This document shows positions 7,640 to 9,951 of a DNA stretch of 20,804 bases, piece after piece. The translations under genes were made by a program, and so were the position numbers. Every line of letters begins with the position of its first letter. Positions within the stretch are counted from its first letter, which is position 1. The DNA is from a virus. Location of the stretch: the IMG/VR virus record IMGVR_UViG_3300017746_000213, positions 1 through 20,804 of that record. The stretch is one strand, 5' to 3'. The notes under the pieces are model-generated. The model had not been told where the DNA came from. It did no database searches and saw nothing but the letters and a program-made list of their open reading frames with translations.

Positions 7640-7931
7640 ATCTTCATAACTGATTGGTAATCAATTGGTTATCTTGAAAACTTGCACGGCCGTCTCTAAC
7701 TTGCTGATTACCAATCAGTTAATCATAAAGAGTTGATAATCAATAGCTTATGAAGATTTTGGGCAAATCGACGAAAATTGACGAAAAAAAGTGAAAAAAA
7801 GTTTCTGGCACAACTGATTGGTAATCAGCAAGTTACGCGGATTTGCGGAAAAAAATGAAAAAAAGATTAAAAAGGCTATTTACATTTCTGTGAAAATAGG
7901 CTAGAATATATACATAATCAAGCCAGAAACT
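7640..7931 (+). repeat. long hairpin/promoter element, copy A (gene-free stretch)
   Basis: A 292-base gap with no gene. Arms AACTGATTGGTAATCA (7648-7663) and TGATTACCAATCAGTT (7705-7720) are perfectly complementary over 16 bases with a 41-base loop. An outer helix ATCTTCATAA (7640-7649) / TTATGAAGAT (7748-7757) encloses it. A third motif copy at 7812-7835 is the exact reverse complement of 7697-7720 over 24 bases. Then come A-rich spacers and a promoter. The same arrangement recurs at 15500-15785, sharing among other things a loop segment TTATCTTGAAAACTTGCACGG (minus one base) and GAAAAAAAGTTTCTGGCAC. Confidence 0.85.
7879..7907 (+). promoter_or_regulatory. sigma70-type promoter at end of element A
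   Basis: TTTACA at 7879-7884 and TAGAAT at 7902-7907, 17-base spacer. CTATTT (7876-7881) and AAATAG (7894-7899) form a dyad across the spacer that also occurs in the copy at 15729, a possible operator. The leader contains the shared AATCAAGC.AGAA motif. Confidence 0.8.
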
Positions 7932-8664: not shown

Positions 8665-8955
8665 ATGAAAAAAGATAGAAACATCTATAGAGTACAAAAA
8701 GGTGAAAACTATTCACTCTATACAAAGAACGGTAAAAAGCACAACCTCAACGGGCCTGCTTTAACGATAGAAAGTGATGAGTATTACTACGTCAAAGGTG
8801 AGCGCTATACTTGGTCTCAATGGACTGATTATGTTGCTCTTTATGCATCATACGAAGAAAGTCCGGACATAGAGAGAGAATGCTTTGTGAAAGCATCCAA
8901 TTCTCCTGATGGGATATATGTTGAGATTAATACTAAAATCTGTAATACAGATTAA
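8665..8955 (+). CDS. small protein with MORN-like NGPA/YYVKG motif
   Basis: A 96-residue protein. The open frame runs back to 8566, but that would overlap the previous gene by 98 bases; the ATG at 8665 directly after the previous stop is chosen. KKHNLNGPALTIESDEYYYVKGERYTWSQW (here spanning residues about 25-54, key groups NGPA, YYVKG and WSQW) resembles the phage MORN-like pattern in which an NGPA turn is followed by a Tyr-rich strand and an (N/K)Gxx(Y/H)xxxxW element. Function unknown. Confidence 0.6.
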   Translation: MKKDRNIYRVQKGENYSLYTKNGKKHNLNGPALTIESDEYYYVKGERYTWSQWTDYVALYASYEESPDIERECFVKASNSPDGIYVEINTKICNTD

Positions 8956-9022
8956 AAAGCTTTACACTGCGCAAAAAATGTGTTAGAATATATTCAGAAT
9001 CAAGCTAGAACTACCATATGAC
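8954..9022 (+). repeat. 69-bp perfect promoter repeat, copy 1
   Basis: Identical over 69 bases to 9883-9951. It includes the A-tract, both promoter boxes, the leader and the first five bases of the coding sequence (ATGAC). The two genes behind the copies then diverge. Confidence 0.95.
8961..8989 (+). promoter_or_regulatory. sigma70-type promoter
   Basis: TTTACA at 8961-8966 and TAGAAT at 8984-8989, 17-base spacer, inside the 69-bp repeat. Leader has the AATCAAGC.AGAACTA motif. Confidence 0.8.
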
Positions 9023-9218: not shown

Positions 9219-9373
9219 AATTTTTCACCTAATGATGGTGCGTCAAGTGAGTATAAACACGGTTAAGCGAATAGAATAAGACGTTAAATAATGAACTATC
9301 GTGGGAGTAAGGGTGCCCTCAGAGAAAGACCCTAATCTTTAAGGAACTATAGTATAATATAGAAACAAAATAT
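9219..9373 (+). other. gene-free leader region of the structured RNA
   Basis: No gene is visible. There are short possible pairings: CGTC (9241-9244) with GACG (9280-9283), GTG with CAC around 9248-9260, AGGGT (9310-9314) with ACCCT (9329-9333), and ACTAT (9296-9300) with ATAGT (9349-9353). GAACTAT occurs twice (9294 and 9344). TATAAT at 9353-9358 could be a -10 box, but no -35 is seen at 16-18 bases. GTGGGAGTA at 9301-9309 recurs at 9538-9546. Confidence 0.4.
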
Positions 9374-9475
9374 GGCCCGGTCATCTAACTGGGAAAGACC
9401 TTCTTGGTAGCAAAGCTACCGCTCGGCGACGGCTGAGCAAGAGAGGGAATGCAGGTTCAATACCTGCTCGGGCCT
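9374..9475 (+). ncRNA. tRNA-like RNA with anticodon loop replaced by two hairpins
   Basis: Acceptor stem GGCCCGG (9374-9380) pairs with TCGGGCC (9468-9474), discriminator T. T arm GCAGG TTCAATA CCTGC (9451-9467) is canonical. D arm TCT/AGA (9384-9386, 9396-9398) has a GG-containing loop. The anticodon stem TTCTT (9401-9405) / AAGAG (9439-9443) has the normal 5 pairs, but instead of a 7-base loop it holds hairpin GGTAGC-AAA-GCTACC (9406-9420) and hairpin GCTCGGC-GACG-GCTGAGC (9421-9438). No base is unpaired between the three helices. There is no anticodon, so it cannot decode normally. It could be a tRNA mimic, a decoy, a processing signal or an altered tRNA. Confidence 0.8.
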
Positions 9476-9476
9476 G

Positions 9477-9544
9477 CTCCTAGCAATTAACGAGGCGTCA
9501 AAATCTTCACGCCTACAACCCGAAAGGGAGAGGCTAGGTGGGAG
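9477..9544 (+). ncRNA. structured RNA domain next to the tRNA-like fold
   Basis: CCTAGC (9479-9484) pairs with GCTAGG (9533-9538), extended by two further pairs around one bulged T. Inside are hairpin AGGCGT (9493-9498) / ACGCCT (9509-9514) with a 10-base loop and CCC-GAAA-GGG (9519-9528), a GNRA tetraloop. It begins two bases after the tRNA-like domain and ends 30 bases before the next ATG. It may be the 3' half of one RNA or the 5' leader of the gene at 9574. Confidence 0.65.
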
Positions 9545-9573
9545 TATAAAAAATCATAATATCGCAACAAACA

Positions 9574-9882: not shown

Positions 9883-9951
9883 AAAAAGCTTTACACTGCG
9901 CAAAAAATGTGTTAGAATATATTCAGAATCAAGCTAGAACTACCATATGAC
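9883..9951 (+). repeat. 69-bp perfect promoter repeat, copy 2
   Basis: Identical to 8954-9022; offset 929 bases. The difference after ATGAC is a C for T and then the genes diverge. Confidence 0.95.
9890..9918 (+). promoter_or_regulatory. sigma70-type promoter
   Basis: TTTACA at 9890-9895 and TAGAAT at 9913-9918, 17-base spacer, in the second 69-bp repeat. Confidence 0.8.

Follow-up and report, generated by a model that had tools for sequence, protein, structure and literature searches.

Several described RNAs resemble a transfer RNA in part. YrlA, a bacterial Y RNA (RF02553), is a non-coding RNA with a tRNA-like module, and tmRNA, including permuted tmRNA (RF04321), joins an anticodon-less tRNA head to another domain. 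The species 1 RNA of phage T4 (rnaC) is a small stable RNA encoded in a tRNA cluster with a canonical T arm at its end, and its record assigns no function to it. GOLLD and ROOL are structured phage RNAs found near tRNA genes that build multimers via symmetric kissing loops (PMC12286853).

Here, we analyzed a window that comprises a whole stretch of 20,804 nucleotides from an IMG/VR virus record (IMGVR_UViG_3300017746_000213). The original prediction placed in this window a tRNA-like RNA with two hairpins instead of an anticodon loop. This RNA and its relatives share with tRNA (RF00005) the acceptor, D, and T arms, U8, A14, G18G19, and a TTCRA T loop, but the 3′ end runs on into a conserved junction module and an insert replaces the anticodon loop. 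In contrast to these RNAs, T4 rnaC is unrelated in sequence and has neither the junction motif nor the GC linker that precedes it; rnaC and rnaD were rejected as family members since they lack the junction motif. Unlike tmRNA, the window has no tag reading frame and no tmRNA match with either ARAGORN or the Rfam covariance model, and most heads of the family are not of the tmRNA type. Relative to GOLLD and ROOL, the family RNA is far smaller and has another fold, and its oligomers are predicted; no GOLLD or ROOL covariance match was detected with Rfam in the window or its relatives. At E 10, the YrlA model did not match the window, and its matches elsewhere were all sub-threshold and lay over ordinary tRNAs.

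Screening of the window and its relatives against Rfam 15 at gathering and permissive thresholds returned only tRNA on some heads, tRNAs, permuted tmRNA in one relative (L013), and chance matches. A description of such an RNA was not found in the open-licence literature, which is part of the whole literature. On present evidence, the RNA represents a new family.

Architecture of the tRNA-like head and the junction module

The tRNA-like head (TL) occupies positions 9374–9475 of the plus strand, with the acceptor stem at 9374–9380/9468–9474, the D arm at 9383–9399, the T arm at 9451–9467, and a discriminator T at 9475. All three arms had been described as intact. This holds for the acceptor (GGCCCGG/TCGGGCC; 7 bp with one G-U) and for the T arm (GCAGG-TTCAATA-CCTGC), the loop of which is canonical, but not for the D stem, which has only three standard pairs and an A10-C25 mismatch. 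U8 is present, as are A14 and G18G19 in the D loop (AACTGGGAA), and the head has in this sense the body of a tRNA with its arms and elbow nucleotides. The two hairpins fill the anticodon arm as proposed (GGTAGC-AAA-GCTACC, 6 bp; GCTCGGC-GACG-GCTGAGC, 7 bp; both perfect or nearly so), and no anticodon loop occurs anywhere in the head. The 5-bp stem, 7-nt loop, and U33 of a tRNA anticodon arm accordingly have no counterpart in the window, which lacks the loop. Neither ARAGORN nor the Rfam tRNA model called the window head, and no tRNA covariance match to this copy was obtained at the Rfam gathering score or at E 10.

The fold of the window head is far more stable than that of shuffled sequence (z = –4.9; 0 of 200 shuffles). 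However, the 5-bp UUCUU/AAGAG stem that was originally drawn, without an unpaired base between helices, is not the best register: the minimum energy is –50.0 vs. –40.6 for the fold as earlier stated. The favored central stem is a 7-bp CCUUCUU/GAGAGGG helix (9399–9405/9441–9447) that leaves AA 9439–9440 unpaired 3′ of the second hairpin, and homologs keep this register (GACC-stem-GG-AAT-T arm). The 7-bp register is preferred because the minimum energy and the homolog pattern agree on it. The domain replacing the anticodon arm spans 9399–9447 (plus strand), with hairpin 1 at 9406–9420 and hairpin 2 at 9421–9438 enclosed by this stem, and is hypervariable.

The expectation of a stand-alone RNA of ~100 nt ending at 9475 was not upheld, since a GC linker (9476–9477, plus strand; seen as GC in 52 of 61 heads) joins the head to a conserved junction module, and the element extends to ~9545. 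The RNA is ~170 nt in length (~9365–9545), and the tRNA-like fold is its 5′ head. The lead to the junction was a weak match of window positions 9477–9537 to a big non-coding region of Tetrasphaera phage TJE1. The junction motif comprises AACGA-P3-TACAA-P4-AGAG closed by helix P1, which starts two or three bases (the GC linker) past the tRNA discriminator. In the window, the module spans 9479–9538 on the plus strand and is matched by the sequence model at E = 2e-12, with P1 at 9479–9484/9533–9538, P3 at 9494–9498/9509–9513, and P4 at 9519–9521/9526–9528. The invariant junction strands, also on the plus strand, are AACGA (9489–9493), TACAA (9514–9518), and AGAG (9529–9532), and AATT (9485–9488) stands in place of the usual P2 hairpin. 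A conserved 3′ tail, TGGGAGT (9539–9545, plus strand), forms the RNA end and is kept in all members of the window lineage. Positions 9374–9538 carry every element by which we define the TL-junction RNA family, namely a tRNA-like head, a GC linker, P1, and AACGA-P3-TACAA-P4-AGAG.

A predicted promoter, AGGAACT-N4-TATAAT (9342–9358, plus strand), lies directly upstream of the head (~16 nt), and the same box precedes the head in those sister phages that keep it. Because of the positions of the box in the window and in sister phages, a discrete transcript covering ~9365 to 9545 is likely. In the window, the box has a single exact match, at 9344–9358, and occurs only before the tRNA-like RNA. Most genes of sister phages L003, L004, L007, L009, L012, L016, L021, and L027 carry it; it is found 5–7 nt before the ATG at dozens of sister-phage genes and often again directly behind the module. 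The placement of start codons 5–7 nt behind the box implies leaderless mRNAs in the sister phages.

A second conserved structured RNA, denoted RNA1 (9241–9335, plus strand), lies beside the TL RNA yet is separable from it, being absent in L003 and L012. RNA1 was identified in 36 IMG/VR stretches, and none was found in a scan of bacterial genomes. Copies in the window, L004, and L014–L035, which represent at least two unrelated phage lineages, share a near-invariant 30-nt stretch (GTCAAGTGAGTATAAACACGGTTAAGCGAT), and alternative helices (AGGGT/ACCCT, GGCATA/TATGCC, and TAGCTA/TAGCTA) compensate around a loop able to pair as a pseudoknot. A two-piece tmRNA with RNA1 as its coding piece was rejected, since the RNA1 reading frames, compared by eye, are not conserved between lineages. 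Short tmRNA-type heads with a GGTTTCGAC core and the G3-U70 alanine mark were observed in L007 (position 10115), L010, L014, L016, L021, L039, and L108; these have no tag-coding or pseudoknot domain, and some encode CCA. They are located just upstream of RNA1 in L014 and L021 and directly before the junction module in L108. Elsewhere in the window, near-identical leader/promoter blocks (AAGCTTTACACTGCGCAAAAAATGTGTTAGAATATATTC...ACCATATGAC) at 8951–9017 and 9889–9946 lie ahead of two different small genes, and non-coding positions 7640–7830 contain repeats of CTGATTGGTAATCA in both orientations.

Distribution, conservation, and circular permutation

Successive junction-motif patterns matched 7, 11, and then 95 IMG/VR stretches, and almost all of these junction motifs sit directly 3′ of a T arm. 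Pattern matches in L075, L130, L131, and L136 were left out as chance matches lacking the fold. Using a simple tRNA-body finder, in which a score of ≥29 was counted as a head, a tRNA-like head was detected directly upstream of the junction at 63 of 79 loci vs. 0.9% of random places. TTCRA is retained in these heads, as are the D-loop GG (59 of 61) and A14 (56 of 61), and their anticodon region is an insert with a median length of 71 nt. The acceptor, D, and T stems of family heads are paired in 98, 91, and 98% of cases, respectively, with double changes in 7 of 7 acceptor columns, 4 of 4 D stem columns, and 4 of 5 T stem columns; since the finder required most of the pairs in the acceptor and T stems and set no such condition on the D stem, the latter provides the less biased figure. 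P1 is represented by 28 distinct strand pairs that are 92% paired vs. 55 ± 4% in whole-strand shuffles, as counted by script in a register fixed by the junction, where pairing was not needed for inclusion. This fixed register was used instead of MAFFT alignments (A1 and A2), which place P1 wrongly owing to the variable lengths of P2 and P4. Pairing is also preserved in P2 and P4 despite changes in their sequence and length. Exactly one copy was present in 14 of the 15 phage records searched with the sequence model, including records of 340 and 459 kb.

In relatives, the acceptor, D, and T helices are maintained, with compensatory changes, and a normal anticodon arm is not, in agreement with the earlier view that the element is not the product of random decay. 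Failure of related sequences to keep the helices had been named at the outset as a sign against that view, which survived this comparison. These patterns of conservation support the interpretation of the element as a functional RNA that relies on tRNA mimicry. In two relatives (L088 and L089), the junction module follows a head whose anticodon arm has the usual length, and by inspection G replaces U33; these heads are probably non-decoding as well. Junction modules were also observed without a convincing tRNA head in L061 (8973), L064 (4498), and L073 (990). Here, the 5′ strand of P1 is inside the loop of a CCGCTG...CAGCGG hairpin, such that P1 would be a pseudoknot.

Among cultured phages, the sequence model also flagged Pseudomonas jumbo phage Psa21 and Erwinia phage pEa_SNUABM_4. 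The order in Psa21 is non-permuted (head, GC, P1, P2, P3, long P4, P1′) and is the same in Pseudomonas phage D6, where the head is annotated as ‘tRNA-OTHER.’ Three BLAST searches from cultured carriers yielded 24, 60, and 69 records, amounting to dozens of cultured phages. Hosts of cultured phages with this RNA include Erwinia, Serratia, Klebsiella, Salmonella, Pectobacterium, and Pseudomonas. Carriers include the T5-like phage KEY, the Felix-O1-like phage phiEa104 (labeled ‘tRNA-Undet’ in its record), Stephanstirmvirinae of Klebsiella and Citrobacter, Faunus of the Chaseviridae, and the jumbo phages CBB, Moabite, and 2050HW. Copies in cultured phages are either unannotated or labeled tRNA-Undet/OTHER.

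Many cultured phages carry a circularly permuted RNA. In the 12 that were parsed, the head is internal, the order being P4(3′)-AGAG-P1(3′)-GGU-small hairpin-head-GC-P1(5′)-P2-P3-P4(5′). All 12 copies have a P1 of 8 bp and a TL T arm paired at 5 of 5 positions. The P4 strands are found at the outer ends of the permuted copies and compensate (GTTAAGA/TCTTAAC, TTCTGAGA/TCTCAGAA, and ATATAAGT/ACTTATAT). Because identical connections occur in two orders, standard and permuted, these sequences are strong evidence that the head and junction fold as one body.

The hypervariable hairpin domain and the putative role of the RNA

When the window is compared to a close relative (L006), flanking genes are 94–95% identical and the junction is 99% identical vs. 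48% for the insert. Six-base palindromes were identified in hairpin loops of 21 of 39 distinct inserts, as compared to 7.1 ± 2.1 expected when loop letters were permuted (maximum of 14 in 2000 permutations), a count that is not fully independent because related inserts share ancestry. On a per-loop basis, 23 of 55 loops are palindromic vs. 7.1 ± 2.1. Permutation of loops is stricter than the whole-insert shuffle that preceded it. Most tellingly, one homologous loop, GCGC-NNNNNN-GCGT, reads ACCGGT, TCCGGA, TCGCGA, and TAGCTA in four relatives. In other relatives, two loops of one RNA are mutually complementary (UGGUCA/UGACCA in L099, UGAUUA/UAAUCA in L129, and, by inspection, UGACCU/AGGUCA in L066). 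For 17 of the 39 distinct inserts, loop pairing of either kind, homotypic or heterotypic, is absent from the minimum-energy folds used.

Since loop palindromes are far above chance, they suggest loop-loop pairing between RNA copies in relatives of the window phage, and symmetric kissing loops in GOLLD and OLE have been argued in the same way (PMC12286853). A palindromic loop was looked for in the window’s own insert and none was found; sister phage L004 has the palindromic loop GCTAGC where the window is shortened. The window copy is a variant with shrunken loops, for which the self-pairing step is not supported.

Together, the family’s features make it reasonably probable that the RNA docks to itself, does not decode, and owes its tRNA fold to the phage’s use of that fold in RNA processing and stability. 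The proposed RNA has three parts: a tRNA body without an anticodon, swappable hairpins in place of the anticodon arm, and the conserved junction module. The conserved RNA, its fold, its permutation, and the palindromic loops of relatives are read directly from the sequences. From them, we infer that the RNA would be transcribed on its own as a unit and that its tRNA body would serve tRNA-type 5′ processing and stability, and possibly dock to a tRNA-binding partner. The hairpin domain would then pair loop to loop with other copies, yielding dimers or larger assemblies through a pairing code that would be particular to each phage; any role in infection is likewise conjectural. We suggest more tentatively, and with less than even confidence, that the family may be a new class of small self-assembling phage RNA, in which a rigid body and junction with private palindromic sticky ends would form closed or chain multimers during infection that exclude the RNA of rivals. 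Protein binding would be equally plausible for an insert with two or three arms. A shared protein partner was sought by clustering the ORFs that surround the loci, which gave lineage-specific neighbors only, with none common to all lineages.

The retention of the elbow, acceptor, and T arm in an RNA with a remodeled anticodon region, the extreme turnover of inserts among close relatives, and the frequent location of the RNA among phage tRNA genes would also be compatible with a decoy or sink, i.e., a tRNA look-alike that occupies tRNA enzymes or anticodon-directed defense nucleases and changes its anticodon region in an arms race. We consider this reading, which is close to one raised in the original prediction, unlikely. 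A decoy for anticodon nucleases should retain the anticodon loop that is missing here, and a pure decoy would need neither an invariant junction module nor survival of permutation with an internal head; moreover, no CCA is encoded.

A role in ribosome rescue or trans-translation, whereby the family would use a tmRNA-type alanine head and feed on or block trans-translation, is quite improbable, even though L108 has a tmRNA-type head with the GGTTTCGAC core and G3-U70 in front of the same junction module, and short heads of this type occur separately in sister phages L007, L010, and L016. Most heads are of the tRNA type without an encoded CCA or tag, and the window itself, as noted above, has no tmRNA match. 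The next gene in the window begins 28 nt past the module, which might point to a cis element in which the head and junction govern processing or expression of that gene; this is highly improbable given that the genes downstream vary from relative to relative, often with a promoter of their own immediately past the module, and that the neighborhood is not conserved. Finally, a decayed or intron-bearing tRNA is scarcely credible: several relatives are called by ARAGORN as tRNAs carrying introns (15–71 nt) and some heads match the Rfam tRNA model with long insertions, but the helices covary, a single copy is kept per genome, the window has no anticodon loop at all once the insert is removed, and the intron-bearing reading was rejected since the anticodons that ARAGORN proposes are inconsistent even between close relatives.

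The conserved RNA described here is kept in single copy by unrelated phages of many hosts and thus probably has an important role. With this family, it becomes possible to test why phages encode stable RNAs that resemble tRNA, of which the T4 species 1 RNA is an old case, and a circularly permuted, tRNA-headed fold is added to these. Annotation would also gain, as some phage ‘tRNA-Undet’ genes encode this RNA. Moreover, the family suggests that multimers like those of GOLLD and ROOL may also be built by a small and tractable RNA.
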